Assembly: GCA_025716815.1 (NCBI GenBank)
Contig: JAIXMN010000018.1
Location: 1-64,000 of the forward strand
Direction of reading: 5' to 3'
Source of the DNA: Dichotomocladium elegans
Taxonomy: Eukaryota > Mucoromycota > Mucoromycetes > Mucorales > Lichtheimiaceae
DNA length: 64,000 nucleotides
Shown piece by piece: positions 25,951 through 44,897 of the stretch. How positions within the stretch are numbered: the stretch's first letter is position 1; every line of letters starts with the position of its first letter. Under the pieces are notes generated by a model that ran no database searches, had not been told where the DNA came from, and saw nothing but the letters and a program-made list of their open reading frames with translations. The position numbers and the translations under genes are program-made.

Positions 25951-26020
25951 ATACTTTATTTTCCGAAATAAATTTCGTACACGAAATAAAAACAATGGCG
26001 TATCAATAGATAAAAAGATT
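25951..26020. repeat. Terminal inverted repeat, Fanzor element copy 2, right end
   Basis: Right terminus relative to the minus-strand Fanzor gene. ATACTTTATTTTCC and the internal TATCAATAG-AAAAAGATTTCG block pair with the other end at 28672-28729. Confidence 0.75.
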
Positions 26021-26044
26021 TCGCATTCATGGATTAATGTATGT

Positions 26045-26156
26045 TACTCCTTCATCACACCCGTGAACTTGCAACACACCGCTCTTCCAACAGAAGAGGG
26101 CTTACCCTCAAGGGATTGTGGTTATCCTGAGTGTGCCAGCGATAACTGATGCGGAA
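26045..26156 (-). ncRNA. Candidate guide-RNA (omega RNA) scaffold of Fanzor copy 2
   Basis: Read on the minus strand this block parallels the one after the intact Fanzor (42455-42555): CAGTTATCGCTG, then CAGGATAACCACA, a CCC-TTGA-GGG hairpin, a CTCTTC/GAAGAG hairpin, and GGTGTGTTG. The two copies agree far more here than in the element's left arm, and stem changes keep pairing. Position at the 3' side of a TnpB/Fanzor gene is where guide RNAs are encoded. Function is inferred, not shown. Confidence 0.6.
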
Positions 26157-26209
26157 ACTTATTGGTCGGGCCCATGGCCGTCTCGATCGGCCTGAGCGTG
26201 TACGTCGTG

Positions 26210-27972
26210 GCCTTCAACTAGCTTCAGACAATTGTGCAATATTTCCTCTCTGAAATCTTGCTGGGATGGTGCCATCTTCCCGAAGACCACGGCGGATATG
26301 ATGCTTATTAAGAGCCGCCACCAGATCCCGATTCCAAAACCTTGGTTAACGAACGCCCACTGCCTTGCCTGCTGCACAGTTTGATTTGAACATCTCTTGA
26401 AATATCAGTATATTAGAAAATATGCACACCCTGATAGCCTTTCCTACAATAGCAGGCCATGGCAAAGAGTGATTGGGTCGTTGATTTGGGCGTGGATTAG
26501 GCACCGTTTTGAAGGCAATGAGAGACTCATTACCGCAGGTGGGGCAGGGGTTGCTGGTTTTGTACCCATCAATTAAATATACATTGCGGTTTTTCTTCTT
26601 CAACAGCGTCTGAAAGCCTACACCGCGGATAGGCTCGTGGTTATCTGGTATTTGGCGCAGACCAGTTTCCAATCACGAACACGGCCTTACTTTCAAACTT
26701 CGCGTTCATAGAGTCGAGAAGCTTTTCACCAGCTTGATGCTTCTTGTGCAAAATGCGGACAGGCAAAATTTTCGAAATAAAAATCGGGGGTTCGTTGTGG
26801 ATGCTGCGTAGAAGGTCGTGAGAAGCGTGGAGACCTGGTTCTTGGCAGTGAGATATCCCGCGTAGTCGAGTACGGAAATGTGTACGACTTTGGTACTGAA
26901 ATAGATGCTATTCGGCTAACGCCATCCCAGGCCGCTCTGCCTTGACTCGTTCTCTCAACCTGTTGCGGTATCACTTGGCCTCCCGTGTATGATCCTGAAG
27001 CGGTTTTTTATAGCGGAATGTTTGGTGGTTATCGGGTGAAGAGCTCACATGAACGCAATATAACAGGTCCCTTTTGCCAGGATCAACGGCGACCCACTCG
27101 CCTATATGATGTCTTCATTTCGGATTAGCTGTGGATTGGTGTACTCGATATCTTCTTTCTGGACCCCAAATCTCTGTCCAAACCCAGATTGAAGGCCATT
27201 TATTTTCTTGAACACTATTAACACCGACGCTATCGGTATGAATAGCCCACGAAATTGGAGCAGCTCGGACCCCCTGAGGCTTGAAAGCTTTAGACTTCAG
27301 GTTTACAACTCGTCTCCAGCGCTCCATGTTGCTTAGGTGAGATTTTATTTTGCACCCGAGGATTTGGTAGCAGAAGATTTTGGTATCGATCTCCATGTAA
27401 CATGGTGCCCGCGACCGACGAAATGGGAAACAGTTGAAGCCGCTTATCCCATTCTCTTCACAGACGTGAGCGATCTGAAAGAAAGCATCGAAATGTTTAT
27501 CGGGGCGGGACTTGGCGTCGTAGTAGCTACTCTGGTGCTGGAATTGGTAGTTCCGAGAGTGTGAGTTCGAAGCAGGTTGTATGATATCGTATGCTTCCCG
27601 AAGAAAGGCAGGATCGGCAAGTATATCTTTCCTCACAGCACCTCGCCGGGCAGTGGCCAGCTTGAACCGTGTGGCATGTCGTATAATGCTTTCTTATTCA
27701 TGTAGGTAGTATAGATCTTGATGCCTTCGTAAAATGAGCATTGCCGAGAATAAGGAAACACCGGCCATTCATATCCGGATATCTGAAGGTACTCATTCTT
27801 GTGATGACTAATTGACTCTCGGATACGGACAGTTTCATCTTGAGTGCGACGTTCGGTTTTGTTACCCATGTAAAGCCCAACTTCAGAAAAGTATTCCTCC
27901 GTCATGTTTGCTTGGATATTAAACTTTGGATTGTGCGCCGCCTCGTTGATGAAAATGGGTTTGGCAAAGATG
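26210..27972 (-). pseudogene. Fanzor RNA-guided nuclease, broken copy
   Basis: Fragments align in order with the Fanzor at 40241. The first is PIFINEAA to YTTYMN (27972-27700). About 48 codons are then missing and the frame changes at about 27695 (IIRHATRFKLATARRG). The part from ILADPAFLREAYDIIQP to FKPQG continues to 27255. RuvC-I is at about 27100-27070 (VDPGKRDLLYC). HEPIRGVGFQTLLKKK and GYKTSNPCPTCGNES lie at 26660-26540, and FWNRDLVAALN at about 26340-26310. Multiple frameshifts and stops prove inactivation. The first ~63 codons of the other copy are not recognisable. The DE of the DEYKTS block reads DG here, a lost putative catalytic glutamate. Confidence 0.88.
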
Positions 27973-28671
27973 AAGACAAGGGTATATAACTCCTTATTAT
28001 CATCTCATTACTGCGCGTGTGCTACCTCTTTGCTCCGGGGAACCTCAATGGTTTGGTCAGTATTTCAAGAGCAGAAAAACGTGTGCACGGACGCACCCTA
28101 TCTGCTCTACTCATGTGTAATTCCCACGGGAGATCGATTGCTGTAAAAACAATAATATTAACGGCGACTTCCGAGCTATTCTCCCTTTGAACGAGCGGTG
28201 TACAGGCACGACAGGAGATTGCCGAAATTAACATTGTGGTTTTCCGTTTATGCAAAAGGCATGAATGTCCGCGTGTATTTTTTTTTCATGTAGGACAACT
28301 GACGAGTATCCAACCAGAGTTACTACAGCTCCTGGGAAGTATAGAGACATGGTCATGGTTATCATGTTTTCATCAGTGGGTCCAATTCTTTGCCATCTTT
28401 TCATCCGTTGATGCAGCAAGTGCTAGCTCTAGCATTAAGGTGTGGTGATGGTTATATGCCACCGCTACTCTATACCGTTTTCAGAAATTGAAGTCGTATC
28501 ATAACAGTTCAGAAGTGGCAAGTTCACTAAAATAGAAGCGTGTTTTTCCAAGAAGCCTTTACGCGTGATGATAAATCTTTATATCGACCTTATACATTGA
28601 CCAATCGCACCCGTACTTGGTGAGCTGGCTTGGTAAGTCAAAATAAAAAGGGGGTGTTTTCTGTTGACTAA

Positions 28672-28729
28672 CGAAATCTTTTGCCTGTTGATACGACAAT
28701 TTCGAAATCGATTTTGGAAAATAAAGTAT
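28672..28729. repeat. Terminal inverted repeat, Fanzor element copy 2, left end
   Basis: Ends in GGAAAATAAAGTAT; the inner CGAAATCTTTTGCCTGTTGA is the complement-side partner of the block at 26000-26021. Confidence 0.75.
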
Positions 28730-29216
28730 AACAGCGGACATGTCCATGAATAACTACCCTGCATATTTTACCTGTGATCCCTACGTCATTGGTTCAAGAA
28801 GAAATGATCGAATGGATCTGATGACAGGGTCGGCGTCACTAGAGCTCATCATCAGACTTCCCAGCATTGTGCCTGCTTAACTAGAATTTATGGACCCGTA
28901 ACACCGGTGATAACATGAAATAGCAACGGTTCAATAGTGCCATATATCGTCCCTGACCGAATCTGCTGTTATTCATAAATGCTGGAACCGCCAAACCTCT
29001 CCCCCCAATTTCCGGCCCGTGAAATTACCTTGATATTTCCTTACTATGATTGGCTACAGCTGAAAATAACGTACGTTCATTCGTTGACACCGGCGCCCTC
29101 AAATGAAGACCGCCCGAGTGAGGGCGTCCGGATGAGGAGGGGGGGTGGGGTGGAAGTAACTTAATGAAGTATGACCAAGGAACAATGGCGATTCTCTCTC
29201 TTTCTGAATACCAAGG
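28730..29216. other. Intergenic, RPL26 promoter side
   Basis: No gene supported. A short G-run occurs near 29143. The last 200 bases serve as the RPL26 promoter/leader. Confidence 0.5.
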
Positions 29217-38749: not shown

Positions 38750-38940
38750 ATAGCATAATTTACACTACTACAATCAGGGTTTATACACCATTTTTCAAAA
38801 TCAAAGTCGCACCCTGCCAGTTTTGAAGTCGCAGGATCGCAAAAATACAAATCGCATTTTTGTCCGGAAATCTTTACGCGTGATGACAAAGCAAAAGTCG
38901 CATACATACACGGAAAGATGTCGCAAATCCATCTCATCCT
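38750..38940. repeat. Subterminal GTCGCA-repeat block, shared with the Fanzor element arm
   Basis: Contains several copies of GTCGCA or its complement at intervals of about 20-30 bases and the block TTTACGCGTGATGA. The same block, with similar flanks, occurs at about 28558-28572 in the left arm of Fanzor copy 2. This looks like an arm of the same transposon family without coding sequence. Confidence 0.5.
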
Positions 38941-39395
38941 TATGACTCTTTCTCTTTATAAACTTTTACATTTTGAAATGAGCAATCTATTATTTTACAA
39001 CGATGGCCAAGGTCATGTCGCTGATGAGGAAATGTACTCACTTCAATCCGTTTGTTCTTACACTGAATATCTGTGTAGCATATCGTGCAAAGATAACTCT
39101 GAGTTTACTCTCACACACATTCCCAAGCGAAAGGATACATACATTCGGATGAAAGAAGCGGGGATCAAGGGCAGTTACACAGCATACACTGATCAAGGCA
39201 AGGTCAGATGTTTCAAACTGGTGTTTGAGGAGGTATTGAGTGCATCAGCTGCAGCAAAACAGCTAGGACCCCATGTTGGTTCAGCACAGCGATGGGCATT
39301 ACAGTAAGAAAAGGATCCTGACAGCATTTTAAGAAACGTAGAAGCAGGGGGCCGATCGTGTATTCTCAATGAAGAGCATTTATTGTTCTAGAATG
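38918..39395 (+). pseudogene. Mariner/Tc1-like transposase N-terminal remnant
   Basis: An open frame (38918-39307) ends in a helix-turn-helix-like segment ASAAAKQLGPHVGSAQRWAL. After the stop, the next bases still read in part ILNEEHLLF, the usual GRP-ILNEEH linker of Mucoromycota mariner-type transposases. The upstream part has FTLTHIPKRKDTYIRMKE, also usual before this HTH. The DDE catalytic domain is absent. This is a truncated relic. Confidence 0.6.
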
Positions 39396-39823
39396 CAATT
39401 TTCGCTAAAAATAGCCGTACTCAAAAGAATCCTATATCGAGAAGACTAAGTTTATTCTTGGAAAGAACAAAGAACTATGGGAGTGTCAATGAGCCATTTA
39501 GCCTGGGGATTGTAACTCCGAAGCTGGTTATCAAATGGAATAATGAAGTAATAGCTTTCAGGAGACTCCTGTGTTCTCATTGTAATATTCAGAGAAATTA
39601 TTCATTATGTACCTACACTTTCTGAACGTATGGATAAGGATGACAGCAGTGTCGTGTTTTGTTGTGTTGTAAGAGACTGAGAGAGTACGAAAAGAAGTAC
39701 AATCTTCCTACACTACACAAGTGCCGGATATGTATCGGATTATTCTTGAGATGGTCTCTTGGAATTACTTGTTGGAATTGTTTGGGATTTCATTGTTGAT
39801 TTCAGACCTCCCTCACGTCGATA
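39396..39823. other. Element-island spacer
   Basis: About 430 bases between the transposase relic and the MITE. I see no gene; it may be decayed transposase. Confidence 0.5.
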
Positions 39824-39995
39824 CAGTGGCCGCCCCTTATAGTTATACCCTCGGTTCCAGGAAATCGCATCACTATAATGAATTATCACTATAATGAATT
39901 GGAATAAGCCCTACCTGGCAATTTTGTCCTTCATAAAGTGCATCGCTATAACGAATTATCATTATAATGAATATCACTATAACGAGCGGCCGCTG
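39824..39995. mobile_element. Pogo/Tigger-like MITE, 172 bp, TA target duplication
   Basis: The left end CAGTGGCCGCCCCTTATAGT and the right end, read inverted, CAGCGGCCGCTCGTTATAGT are near-perfect terminal inverted repeats. Both are flanked by TA (39822-39823 and 39996-39997). The interior has palindromic units such as CACTATAATGAATTATC. The CAGTG start and TA duplication are standard for pogo-type Tc1/mariner MITEs. It has no coding capacity. Confidence 0.85.
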
Positions 39996-40240
39996 TAAAA
40001 CCTCATTAAAGAACCCCGTGGGAAAAAGAAAAACACTGTGGAGATGGATCATTGCTGACACTATAAATAGTGATGCTCAAGCAAGCTGTCCCTTTCCATT
40101 ATCCACATACAAAACTAGAGCCCATTCAGCCTACAGAAAATAACACAGCACCACATTTACGGTTGAAAGGTAATACGGCCGCTTTCATACTCGGCTCTGC
40201 GATACTAAGTAATAATATACTCTAGGTCTTCACCCACCAA

Positions 40241-42439
40241 ATGGCCCAACCCCACCGCCCCGTCATTCCCGAAGGCATGCGCACTGGCCACAGCATTGAC
40301 CGCACTGGCCGTATAATTGGGGTGAAATCGTCCATACGGGGCATCGGCTGGCGACAGCAGTACCGTGAACGTCTGTATCAGTTGGTTGACCTTGTCCACA
40401 ACACCACAACACAGGCGTACGCGTTCGCCAAATATATTTTCATCAACGAGGCAGCGCGCGATCCAACTTTTAACATCCAGGAAAACATCACGGAGAAGTT
40501 CTTTTCAGAAGTTTGGCTCTCCATGGTTAACAAAGCCGAACGCCGCACCCAAGGTGAAACTGCCCGCATCCGAGAACTAATTAACCGCCACAAGGATGAG
40601 TACCTTCGGATATCCGGATACGACAGGCCTGCGTTCCCTTATTCCCAGCAATGTTCTTCTTACGAAGGTACCAAGATTTATACTGCTTACGTGAATAATG
40701 TCCACATGCGGTTCGGACAACACCTTCGGCGTGTCATCAATGTCATCCTGAATCTTCGTCAGCGAAAAGCCGACCGCAAGCGAGAGTTAATCGCACAGGG
40801 CCTAAGCCCCGATCAAGTACGCCAGGACCTTTATGAAACCATCACCCGGCATGCCACAGGATTCAAGCTAGCAATTGCCCGTCGAGGTGTTTTGAGGGAA
40901 GACATTAACGCCGAACCTGGATTTCTTCGGGAAGCATACGATATCCTACAACCTGTCTTAAACGCTTACCCCCGAAACCACCAATTCCAACACCAGAGTA
41001 TCTATTACGACGCCAAGGCCAATCCTGTTAAGCATTTCAACGCCTTCTTCCAGCTTGCACGCGTTTGTCAACAGAACGGAATACGCGGATTCAACTGTTT
41101 TCCACTTCGTCGCTCGTGGTCACCATGCTACATGGAGATCGATACGAAAATCCTTTGCTACCATATCCTGGGCTGCAAAATGGAATCCCACACAAGCAAT
41201 ATGGAGTACTGGAGACGTGTTGTAAACCTGAAATCAAGAGCTTTCAAACCCCAAGAATCCGAGCTGCTCCAATTCCGTGGGACTATTCACACTGACGGCG
41301 TCGGTGTTACTGTGTTCAAGAAGACAAATGGCCTTCAATCGGGTTTCGGACAGAGATTTGGCATCCAGAGCGAAGATATCGAATACGTCACCCCACAGAT
41401 ACTCCGGAACGAAGACTATAGAGGACAATGGGTCACCATTGATCCTGGCAGAAGGGACCTGTTGTATTGCGTTCATGAGAACTCGTCACCCGACAACCAC
41501 CAGACCTTCCGATATACAAAGCAACTTCAAGATCATACACGCAAGACCAAACGGTACCGCAGACTCCGAGAACGACTCAAGTTAGAGCGACCCGAGGTCG
41601 CGTTGGCTGAGCAGAATCTATCTCAATTTCAAAGTCATACGCTTTCCGTGTCCAACTACGACGGATACCTCGCCGCCAAGAATCGGGTCTCTGTAGTTCT
41701 CAAGTCTTTCTACGCGACAACCACTACGAACCACCCGAACCCGCAATTTCTTTTTCGAAAACTTCGCCTGTCAGCGTTTTACAAGAAGCAGCAAGCAGAT
41801 GAAAAGCTTCTCGATTCTTTGAATGCGAAGTTTGGCAGTAGATCCGTTTTCGTGATGGGAAATTGGTCTGCGCCGCATACAAGATATCACGAGCCTATCC
41901 GTGGTGTCGGCTTCCGGCGGCTGTTGAAGAAGAACAATTGTAATATTTATTTGGTCGACGAGTACAAGACAAGCAAGTGCTGCCCTGTATGTGACAATGA
42001 AAGCCTTGCTACCTTTAAAATGGTTCCTAATCCACGCCCATATCGACGACCCGACAATCCGCTCACGATCTGCCATGGCCTGCTACGGTATGAAGGACGG
42101 GCATGTTGTGTTATACTTCCAAAAGATTATAATACAGTATTTTGATGTTTCAATAGATGCACAAATCAAAACTGTACAGCAGGCATGGCAGAGGGTGTTT
42201 GTCAACCAAGGTTATGGAACCGGGATCTGGCGGCGGCTCTCAACATGCATCATATCCTCCGGGGTCTTCGGGAAGATGGTATCATCCCAGCAAGGTTCCA
42301 GAGAAGAAATGCTGCACAAGCATCCGCAGCTGGTGGAAGACCACACTCACCTGAACCAGAGCAGCGCAGCGTGAGACCACGACGAGCAAGGCCAGGAAGG
42401 CCACGAGGTGCACGCTCTGGCGGGTCGAGACGACCGTAA
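40241..42439 (+). CDS. Fanzor (TnpB-like RNA-guided endonuclease), near-intact copy 1
   Basis: Exon 1 runs 40241-42087 and exon 2 42211-42439 in the preferred model, 691 aa. A helical/basic N-terminal half is followed by RuvC-I (WVTIDPGRRDLLYC, D401). Next comes HEPIRGVGFRRLLKK (about 550-564), then DEYKTSKCCPVC (E574, first zinc pair) and CHGLL (611-615). After the intron comes LWNRDLAAALNMHHI (RuvC-III, D621). D-E-D with a CPxC ribbon is the Fanzor/TnpB pattern. The C-terminus is Arg/Gly/Pro-rich. Fanzors are guide-RNA-directed DNA nucleases carried by transposons. No internal stop or frame break occurs in exon 1, so it may be active. The zinc ribbon seems to lack a clear second CxxC, the main oddity. 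Confidence 0.9.
42088..42210 (+). other. Predicted intron in Fanzor copy 1
   Basis: Donor GTATGA and acceptor CAACCAAG fuse CHGLL to R-LWNRD in frame. Copy 2 has GT (GTAGGA) and the same AACCAAG acceptor at the equivalent places, with a 107-nt interval; the 16-base difference is not a multiple of three, as expected for an intron. An alternative donor GTGTTA with acceptor CAGCAG keeps extra cysteines (RACC...VCQ) and is also in frame. Confidence 0.6.
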
Positions 42440-42454
42440 CCCCAACCAAGAATT

Positions 42455-42555
42455 TTCCGCGTCAGTTATCGCTGACGCACCCAGGATAACCACAGCCCTT
42501 CGGGGCAAGCCCCCTTCCTTTGGAAGGACGGTGTGTTGTAAGTCAACGGGATTGG
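42455..42555 (+). ncRNA. Candidate guide-RNA (omega RNA) scaffold of Fanzor copy 1
   Basis: Directly after the Fanzor stop. Hairpin 1 is GCGTCAG-TTATCG-CTGACGC (42459-42478). GATAA at 42485-42489 can pair with TTATC of its loop, giving a pseudoknot. Hairpin 2 is GCCC-TTCG-GGGC (42495-42506), a UUCG-type tetraloop. Hairpin 3 is CCTTCC-TTT-GGAAGG (42513-42527). Then comes CGGTGTGTTGTAAGT. The copy 2 block preserves the same order with paired but different stem bases. This is where TnpB-family guide RNAs are encoded. Exact RNA ends and guide length cannot be seen. Confidence 0.65.
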
Positions 42556-42594
42556 AGAAGGCGTAGTGTTTTCTGCAGACTAACAGGGTTTCAT

Positions 42595-42721
42595 CCATGG
42601 ATGCGATATCTTTTTACCTATTGATACGACAAATTTATATAATTCTATGCGACATTCTTCTTGTATTTTGCACGACATTATTTTATCTTGTTTACGAAAT
42701 TTATTTTTGAAAATAAAGTAT
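42595..42721 (+). repeat. Right terminus of the Fanzor element copy 1
   Basis: Shares CATGGATGCGATATCTTTTT and TATTGATACGAC with the end of copy 2, then carries about 60 extra bases with GCGACATT units, and ends ACGAAATTTATTT and AAAATAAAGTAT at 42721. The corresponding left end upstream of 40241 was not found, so this copy may be truncated on the left. Confidence 0.7.
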
Positions 42722-44897
42722 ATGCACATCATTAAATGCAGCGTTCAAGAGGATAAACTTATACCACTCAATGACAACGGTTGTACCTGCTGGATCCGTT
42801 CCTATAGAGCATTAGCTACTTTTTGATGTGCAGATGATTTATAATGGCCTTCCTGTGCTTATTGTTAACATGATGCATAACTATTCATTGGTGTTTTACC
42901 TTTGGTGGTACATAATTGGAATGGAAGGCATAGCCCCGATACATATTCATTCTGCCCGCCAAATGAACACTTCAAAGCAAGTAGACAAATCATCGAATTC
43001 GTCCAACCAGTGTTGTTGCGTAAAATTGATGTAACTGCTTGCCGTGTGTGTGTGTGTGTGTCGTCTGCAACGTCATGACATCCTGTTAATAACTCATCGT
43101 CCGAGGGTCGACATACAATATGATTGCACCTTTCGCGATTGCCAACAAACCTACTGGGAGCCAAGTTGAGCATATGTGAGAGTTCTGAGTCCATACCACC
43201 AAGCAGAATAAAGATCAACTTTGGAAACAGTGATATCAGCTGTGTATCTGCGTCGAACCGTCGGTTCTGATAAAGAATGGAAAGAATAAGAAAAGCATTT
43301 GTATGCAGCAAGCTCTTTTCTCTGCACTTCAACGACCACAAGATCGTCCACATCATTATATACGTAGTCTAGGTATCATTTCTGCAATGAATGCACTCCT
43401 GTAGCCTTCTGATATTTCGAAATCAGACCAAAGACGCATTCGCTTTGCGCTTTCAGATACACATTTTTCGATCTTCGTAGATGGCTTTATTTATCCTCTC
43501 TTTTTCATGCCCGTCCCCGCCATACCCATCCTTTACCGAGAGGTAAGTATCAACAAATGTCCTCATGTAATAGCTCATCGCGCGTCCCCTTTTTGTTTTC
43601 TTAGTTCATGTTCTCAATCCCGGACAAGGCAACGAAGAGCGTTTCCGATACCAACGTCCAGGCTGAACGTATTCACCAAGTAACAGTACTTTGAAGCCTG
43701 ATATGTCTGCTTTCAATAAAAGGAACGAAAAAAAAACCTTTCCCTTCCCTAGACCATTCATGTCCATCAACGACGGCAGTTGCAGGAACACTCCCCCCCC
43801 AACACACACACACACACGCACGCGAAACACTTCTTCTGTCGGCTTAGACGAGTGAGTCTGCAAGGGTCAATGGCAATGGTCAAGGTCAAGATGTTGTCCT
43901 TACGATCTGAAGCTCCCTAGCGATCCAGGGTCATTGTTGGCTCACGAGTACAGTATACTCTTTTTGACTAACTTACTCTTCCTCTTCACTTTTCGTTTAG
44001 GCTTGCTCTTGCCCAGACCTTCCATGAGGAAGCAGATTTCTCGACTGTCCCATATTTATAGGAGTTAGATACGACGACCGATCGCACATGTATAATCTCT
44101 TTGTGATAAGAATGACCATTCTCAACCGTTAGCTCCAAATTCATGCATACTGTAGGATGTACGTAGTGTGCAGATAAGCAAGCACAAATATGACTCTATT
44201 CGAATCAGAATCTATATGATTATTACGTACAGTAATAATCAGCGGTAGCTAGTGTGGACTGGGCCCAATACTTTTTATTTTCAACCAAGTGTGTGATGAT
44301 GGATATCGCTCGATCGGTGTAAATATTTAAGTTTCAATAGAAGCAATTCATGCGTGCATTAAGCCGAATCATTTGTGTGTGCGCCAATACATACGGATGA
44401 AGAGAAAAGCTTGGTAAAGATATCCCTATTACTATGTTTTTACGTAGCGTTAATGACGCTCTCTGCCCCATCAGGCTCGCCTTTAGGGTGCCTTCCCCCA
44501 AGTAATGAAGATTGATATTCGCTCTTCTCCATAGACACAGAAATCAGAACTGCATAGTAAGCATGTGTATTCAACATCAACTTCATTCAATCAACAACAG
44601 TATTCATTCTCTATGTGACCATACCATCCAGCTTCAGAGTCAGTACAACTCTTCTTGCTGTGATTCTCCTGCCTGTCTGATTCAAGTACAGTACGACGAT
44701 CCTAGCCGCTACTACTCATGGCACTGCGCTTGCAGAGACAGCAACGTGCGGCGTTGCCGACTTATCCAGTCTGATCATCCGTCCAACCACGATTATCACA
44801 TATACCAAGGGCGGTACGGAGGAGAGGAAAGATTGTAATGTACAAAACTAGAACAAAAGAGGGGTTTCCCGCTTGTCCTTTTCTTTTTTTTTTTTTT
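42722..44897. other. Mostly non-coding spacer with one weak gene candidate
   Basis: A GTGT microsatellite lies near 43043 and a poly-A/poly-C stretch near 43730-43815. The candidate at 43481-44061 is listed separately. A frame at 44512-44838 lacks motifs, and its AT content and position do not support a gene. An 18-base T run at 44882-44899 abuts the Chs4-like stop codon. Confidence 0.5.
43481..44061 (+). CDS. Possible small multi-exon gene, not recognised
   Basis: Short open segments flanked by good splice signals: ATGGCTTTATTTATCC to GAG with donor GGTAAGTA (about 43541), acceptor TTCTTAG near 43605, a segment FMFSIPDKATKSVSDTNVQA, and a last exon after CGTTTAG (about 44001) reading LALAQTFHEEADFSTVPYL with stop at 44061. 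The internal exon edges are not resolved and no family is recognised. It may be a small real gene; confidence is low because the middle segment contains microsatellites. Confidence 0.3.

Follow-up and report, generated by a model that had tools for sequence, protein, structure and literature searches.

Intron-like signals between a Fanzor1 omegaRNA scaffold and the right end of its transposon suggest a splice-assembled guide RNA in Dichotomocladium elegans

In known Fanzors, the guide begins where the transposon terminates on its right side. All three Fanzor1 RNAs of solved structure form seven pairs in SL1, the first stem-loop of the RNA, and for PpFz1 of Parasitella parasitica the TAM is ATN and the segment C50-C58 is named as guide, which places the guide start at about nucleotide 50 (available excerpt of PMC11423790). 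In the RNA of SpuFz1 from Spizellomyces punctatus, U5-C6-C7 precede SL1, C6 pairs with G20, and U16, G17, U18, C19, G20 and G22 touch the protein (available excerpt of PMC10432273).

The window analysed here, a stretch of 64,000 nucleotides of the Dichotomocladium elegans contig JAIXMN010000018.1, contains two Fanzor1 transposons, of which copy 1 has an intact gene (Table 1). Judged from its sequence, the copy 1 protein is a Fanzor1 nuclease: it aligns to solved Fanzor1s including the DPG motif (DPGRRDLLYC), its closest solved relatives are PpFz1 (E 8e-120) and SpuFz1 (E 1e-43), and its zinc ribbon (CPVC..CTNQNC) is complete once a coding intron (42088-42156, donor GTATGA) is removed, which restores both RCTNQNC of the ribbon and the motif NRDLAAALNM. 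The best protein matches, at 43-48%, are from Mucor, Syncephalis and Rhizopus. A Pfam scan of the 634-aa reading frame of the window returned no family, but PF26935 is precomputed on nearly all of 113 relatives.

Table 1. Features of the two Fanzor1 elements, in window positions
Feature	Position	Strand	Remark
Fanzor1 transposon copy 1, 3,933 bp	38786..42718	+	left CACCATTTTTCAAAATC, right ...GAAAATAAAG
Left TA target-site duplication	38784..38785	.	almost every one of 34 rows has TATA here (TATA in search string)
Fanzor1 coding sequence, 709 aa	exons 40241-42087 + 42157-42439	+	
omegaRNA scaffold (predicted first exon)	42455..42537	+	
TCC ahead of SL1	42456..42458	+	equivalent to SpuFz1 U5 C6 C7
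Stem-loop 1, GCGTCAG-TTATCG-CTGACGC	42459..42478	+	7 bp, loop UUAUCG
GGATAACC	42484-42491	+	copy 1
GGATA	42484..42488	+	claimed pseudoknot partner, or 5' strand of stem 2 base
Stem-loop 2, GCCC-TTCG-GGGC	42495..42506	+	cUUCGg loop; variants in families B, D, W2
Stem-loop 3, CCTTCC-TTT-GGAAGG	42513..42527	+	inserted hairpin, found in family A and in W2 relatives
Putative spliceosomal intron, 181 nt	42538..42718	+	inner part and end of right terminus
GTAAGT, putative 5' splice site	42538..42543	+	
TTTTCTG and branch-point-like GACTAAC	42569..42584	+	
AG, putative 3' splice site	42717..42718	+	last base pair of element
Right TA target-site duplication	42719..42720	.	last two scaffold nucleotides if spliced as proposed
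Predicted guide, host flank	42721..42736	+	about 15 nt, length borrowed from other Fanzor1 RNAs
Fanzor element copy 2, decayed	25954..28726	-	5' end in reverse: GTAAGTC..GACTAAC..AAAG

Both a TA duplication and terminal inverted repeats, features of Tc1/mariner-like elements, are present. Copies aligned at many unrelated sites share the same ends, and these give the limits of copy 1, whose exact boundary we assigned at the C/G adjoining TA; the terminus falls on the AAAG ending at 42718, with the TA duplication behind it, and not at 42721 as an earlier note on this DNA had placed it. Each of the 63 tabulated loci has TA immediately after the terminal AG, TA having been part of the search string, and right ends placed by BLAST likewise read AAAGTA. 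The terminal motif is AAAG in 59 of the 63 loci (ATAG in two, TAAG and GAAG in one each), and the 20-nt stretch after TA is distinct in 62 of them. Almost all of the 34 left flanks compared terminate in ATA (two of them secondary matches, and the search string itself included TATA), which fits the PpFz1 TAM ATN. In 30 copies that retain both ends, no target-site duplication exceeded TA in length, and no relative was found in viral contigs. AATAAA, a polyadenylation signal, stands at the right end of most copies (42712-42717 in the window).

The host genome (39.4 Mb) holds at least 79 Fanzor protein matches, 70 of 863 candidates having been scored. Our sample of loci comprised 60 around Fanzor protein matches and 20 further short stretches, in which several families of element (A to E and W2) were distinguished. 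One locus (L065), about 1.2 kb long, keeps both ends of the element and has lost most of the gene; another (L054) carries a tandem pair of different scaffolds, one of family B and one of family C, and AAAG-TA closes each of the two; and two Fanzor1 copies of 49-52% identity (L052, L061) are without a scaffold of the type described below in the 3' stretch examined. At the 5' end of copy 1, a 129-aa reading frame (38918-39307, ending ..AAKQLGPHVGSAQRWALQ) looks helix-turn-helix-like by eye and gave no Pfam match; it is perhaps a transposase remnant. About 170 bp of repeated CACTATAATGAATTATC units (39824-39994) occur in many family-A copies and are missing from others (for example L020, L022 and L058), so this stretch looks like an insertion nested within the Fanzor element. 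By eye, the left end of copy 2 (28600-28730), read in reverse, resembles a family-E right end: part of stem 2, GTAAGTC, GACTAAC and a terminal AAAG are all there, which gives the impression that scaffold-like sequence was once present at both ends.

A structured region lies directly 3' of the Fanzor gene, 15 nt separating the stop codon (ending at 42439) from its start. In copy 2 the equivalent block is on the minus strand at about 26160-26060, and the stretch common to the two copies spans 133 nt at 75% identity. The conserved non-coding block that had been described beside both Fanzor copies is borne out, all its named features being present, including the cUUCGg tetraloop on hairpin 2 of copy 1. 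It recurs much more often than chance would allow: a genome search with TCCG-6N-TTATYR-10..16N-GGATA gave 113+95 = 208 matches, at least two of the listed ones being chance matches without a hairpin (by eye), and the reversed-pattern control has 0+0. These scaffold matches (208, a few of them by chance) outnumber the 79 Fanzor matches, both counts being incomplete. The block gave no Rfam match at gathering scores. Numbering its TCC as 5-7 makes the SL1 loop U15 U16 A17 U18 C19 G20, in the register of the SpuFz1 contacts (U16-N-U18-C19-G20; available excerpt of PMC10432273), and by analogy the loop is probably protein-bound, as in SpuFz1. Because this register and the seven-pair SL1 match the SpuFz1 and PpFz1 RNAs, identification of the block as the omegaRNA scaffold of a Fanzor1 transposon is strongly supported; the proposal of a guide-RNA scaffold beside Fanzor thus stands, with SL1 covariation and PpFz1 as closest solved relative adding to the register match.

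Selection on RNA structure had been argued from the arms of hairpin 3, said to differ between the copies and yet to stay complementary (CCTTCC/GGAAGG versus CTCTTC/GAAGAG). Complementarity does hold in both copies, but the arms so compared are one base out of register; aligned base for base, they differ by a single genuine two-sided change, in which C-G has become T-A, besides a newly gained pair and a wobble, and hairpin 3 is absent from family B. It is SL1 that covaries between families. In the decayed copy 2, two of the seven SL1 pairs are broken (C-A, A-C), a point that the earlier note passes over. Among the matches listed, 75 distinct sequences, chosen via TCCG plus loop or GGATA and never via pairing, form on average 5.96 of 7 SL1 pairs, against a mean of 4.71 (maximum 5.07 in 500 trials) when arms are swapped between sequences. 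All seven pairs form in 35 of the 75, six in 19, five in 11, four in 4, three in 5 and two in 1, so that at least six form in 54, and the middle pair (pair 4) occurs as all six standard types (A-U, C-G, U-G, G-C, U-A, G-U). The 31 distinct rows from the search that left the loop free have a mean of 5.87 against 5.10 arm-swapped (maximum 5.52), while an earlier, selected subset of 56 sequences gave 6.21 against 4.84, somewhat better than the full 75. In a MAFFT alignment of nine SL1 sequences of four kinds, 95.2% of cells are paired and the covariation score was reached in 4 of 500 shuffles; two of the seven pairs have two-sided changes, a number matched in 233 of 500 shuffles. On these sequence comparisons, SL1 is stronger evidence for a conserved RNA structure than hairpin 3.

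The earlier note had also paired the SL1 loop TTATC with a downstream GATAA in a pseudoknot. Both motifs are kept in the two copies, but the more distant family B retains only TATC/GATA (GGATACC), and no compensatory change is seen between the SL1 loop and GATA. A TnpB-type pseudoknotted scaffold joining loop and GATAA would be compatible with every other reading considered here and would account for the retention of GATA/TATC in families A, B and W2, all found via Fanzor and unselected for the motif; we nevertheless consider it improbable, given the missing compensatory change and the loop variants TTACC and TCATA that occur alongside an unchanged GGATA (in a search that required GGATA). The SpuFz1 RNA is without a pseudoknot according to a published figure legend, and Fanzor1 RNAs are predicted without one (available excerpt of PMC10711439). 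The two pattern searches on which the GGATA assignment draws both had it as a requirement, and families D and E came from them. When GGATA was not required, an SL1 search gave 282 matches (5 in the control); four of them, read at sequence level, comprise one with GGATAA, one with GGACA and two without GGATA in 35 nt, the last two still having a pairable SL1 and a TTATCG loop. These two (G000:C1:17668 and C1:53945) may belong to a further guide-RNA family, and in the first SL1 continues straight into ATGCGACAA, a terminal-repeat motif. Conservation of loop and GATA could be explained otherwise, either by protein contact of the loop as in SpuFz1 or by pairing of the UA in GATA with the UA of the target duplication. 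The pseudoknot is thus unproven and unneeded, and we do not regard it as supported.

Scaffold and right end are 181 nt apart in copy 1 (42537 to 42718) and 77 to 182 nt apart among copies, so that in the DNA the scaffold does not run continuously to the right end. As the inner right end of the transposon parts the scaffold from the flank, we propose that it is removed as an intron. An RNA reaching past the terminus, which the earlier note expected, would therefore be either spliced or endowed with a scaffold of about 265 nt. The second of these, a long unspliced omegaRNA that runs through the terminal repeat into the flank with the repeat looped out or folded, agrees with published Fanzor1 guide RNAs, in which both TIR and TSD are included and the 3' part extends some 15 nt beyond the TSD (available excerpt of PMC10711439), and with the GtFz1 RNA, as long as 150 nt (available excerpt of PMC11423790). 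It is nonetheless unlikely in our estimation, since the stretch differs so much in length among copies while bearing splice-like constraints, and SpuFz1 and PpFz1 have stem-loop 2 alone between SL1 and guide (available excerpt of PMC11423790). Folding of 35 scaffolds (11 chosen and 24 of 33 search rows) made the spliced RNA on average 0.5 kcal/mol weaker than the unspliced, with family A folding better unspliced; UA was the best of the 16 dinucleotides that could complete stem 2 in 11 of the 35. The spliced form of family B would read UACC-UUCG-GG joined to UA, in which a perfect UUCG loop closes a stem of four pairs, and that of family D would pair UAACUC with GAGU joined to UA at six of six positions.

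The signals expected of an intron are found at both borders of the stretch. With the donor not required in the search, GTAAGT is exact in 51 of 54 family-A copies, the others having GTAAGC, GTAGGT and GCAAGT (an earlier tally of 47/50 had required a donor-like string), and it occurs in 10 of 14 loci fetched likewise without requiring a donor, the remaining four reading GTAACT twice (one duplicated locus), GTTAGT and GTAAAT. For comparison, host introns were delimited by eye from reading frames: a clear donor was present in four of seven stretches (eEF1A, CLU and two in a P-type ATPase), in each case GTAAGT, and CLU2, CLU3 and ATP2 could not be placed. The eEF1A intron has TTACTAAT ahead of TAG, and the placed host introns end in TAG or CAG; the putative acceptor of the element is AAAG.

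Conservation just past stem 2 is also what a fixed internal guide would give, that is, an element-encoded guide at about 42541-42565, identical in all copies. The SpuFz1 and PpFz1 geometry indeed puts the guide directly past stem 2, and the sequence is conserved in family-A copies; its 77 genome matches at no more than 3 mismatches (reversed control 1) are, however, mostly like element 3' ends, and four of them, all with 3 mismatches, are unlike element copies (only matches inside fetched loci were read as letters). No host target is evident among the 77 and every copy would share one guide, so we set this candidate aside as very improbable.

Past the branch point, no dinucleotide is as strongly depleted as AG. 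Eight tails, one for each kind (single ones from families A, B, C and D, two from family E, and two from copy 2, whose 5' end was reversed for this purpose), contain 2 AGs where 28.1 are expected, both sitting directly after the branch point; in the same tails GA is in excess (47), GT is next lowest (0.51), and CT, the reverse complement of AG, stands somewhat low as well (0.61). Upstream of the branch point AG is normal (14 against 14.2 expected, five families), as it is in the other non-coding DNA of the family-A element (58 against 58.1), and in the left end of copy 1, read outward, it is mildly low (8 against 12.1). The full set of 15 stretches, of which seven lie outside the eight tails (including L075 and L050, with 2 AGs each), has 8 AGs against about 55 expected, with single-stretch chances of 0.005 to 0.12; as the stretches are homologous and have internal repeats, the expected AGs are not independent and these statistics overstate independence. 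An intact donor and right end were needed for the count, which excluded L070, L076, L077, L078 and L080. In 47 of 50 family-A copies there is no AG from 4 nt past the branch point to the terminal AG, the exceptions (L048, L050, L066) having one each; extra AGs outside family A occur in L069, L072, L073 and L075. With its host-like donor, its branch point and its exclusion of AG before the terminal AG, 42538-42718 thus resembles a spliceosomal intron.

Some features sit less easily with splicing to the terminal AG. The branch point lies about 135 nt ahead of the acceptor in family A. Such a distance is long for a fungal intron. An AG directly after the branch point in families A and D could yield a 49-nt intron, and L071 likewise has an AG there, immediately beyond the limits of the tail that was counted. 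Intron signals close to a stop codon may arise incidentally, and GTAAGTC with an AG-free tail is also found in the 5' terminal repeat of copy 2, where the motif may be retained for the transposase. These last two points would fit a 3'-UTR intron of the ordinary sort or some signal of the transposon end unconnected with the guide, the scaffold RNA then arising by a separate route; we judge it a slender prospect, since in the families tabulated the element terminates exactly at the acceptor and the structured scaffold exactly at the donor.

Taking these lines together, we think it moderately probable that the scaffold is joined to a flank-derived guide by spliceosomal removal of 42538-42718. The fuller reading, in which the right terminal repeat is an intron, exon 1 the scaffold and exon 2 the target-site duplication with the host guide, so that the host spliceosome builds the guide RNA, we hold to be just probable. 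Transcription would start with Fanzor and continue across the right terminus into the host flank, splicing would connect the GTAAGT donor that borders the scaffold with the terminal AAAG of the element, using GACTAAC as branch point, and the mature RNA would consist of scaffold, UA from the target duplication, and guide. The scaffold would offer UCC, a 7-bp SL1 with a protein-held UUAUCG loop, a short linker, stem 2 and an extra family hairpin. With host DNA directly past the right end as guide, the nuclease of each copy would be aimed at its own empty site; once the element had been excised, Fanzor would cut that site and repair would bring the element back. Such restoration of an excised element by cutting and repair has reportedly been proposed for TnpB.

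If the proposed splice is correct, the transposon reconciles the long right terminal repeat of its transposase with the scaffold-guide contact of its nuclease: the repeat would be spliced out here, whereas published Fanzor1 RNAs include it. RNA-guided homing of a eukaryotic transposon would then be tied to host RNA processing, and we know of no earlier guide RNA assembled by the spliceosome. A Fanzor omegaRNA is itself of a known kind, and it is the splice-assembled form that is probably new; our search of the available literature for a spliced Fanzor guide RNA found no paper, and absence from print is not established.

Among described systems, PpFz1 (PDB 9cf0-9cf3) is the closest solved protein; it shares the 7-bp SL1, and its 4-bp SL2 is as in family B here (available excerpt of PMC11423790). 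It differs by an FRI insertion of about 100 aa, which is an alignment gap in the protein of the window. SpuFz1 resembles the locus in having UCC followed by SL1 and a TAM containing TA, and the surplus of scaffolds has a counterpart in the 42 Fanzor and 134 ghost loci of S. punctatus, but the 75-nt SpuFz1 scaffold is unbroken through a 30-nt inverted repeat to the guide, where 181 nt intervene here (available excerpt of PMC10432273). In the reRNAs of SfAV and viral Fanzor1s, the TSD likewise lies within the scaffold and a guide of about 15 nt follows it, but the TIR belongs to the RNA scaffold, and the available part of that text contains neither "intron" nor "splic" (PMC10711439). IStrons, which combine a group I intron with an IS element, similarly show a mobile element taking part in RNA splicing; they rely on a self-splicing group I intron, whereas the signals found here are spliceosomal and concern the right end only (available excerpt of PMC4227781).
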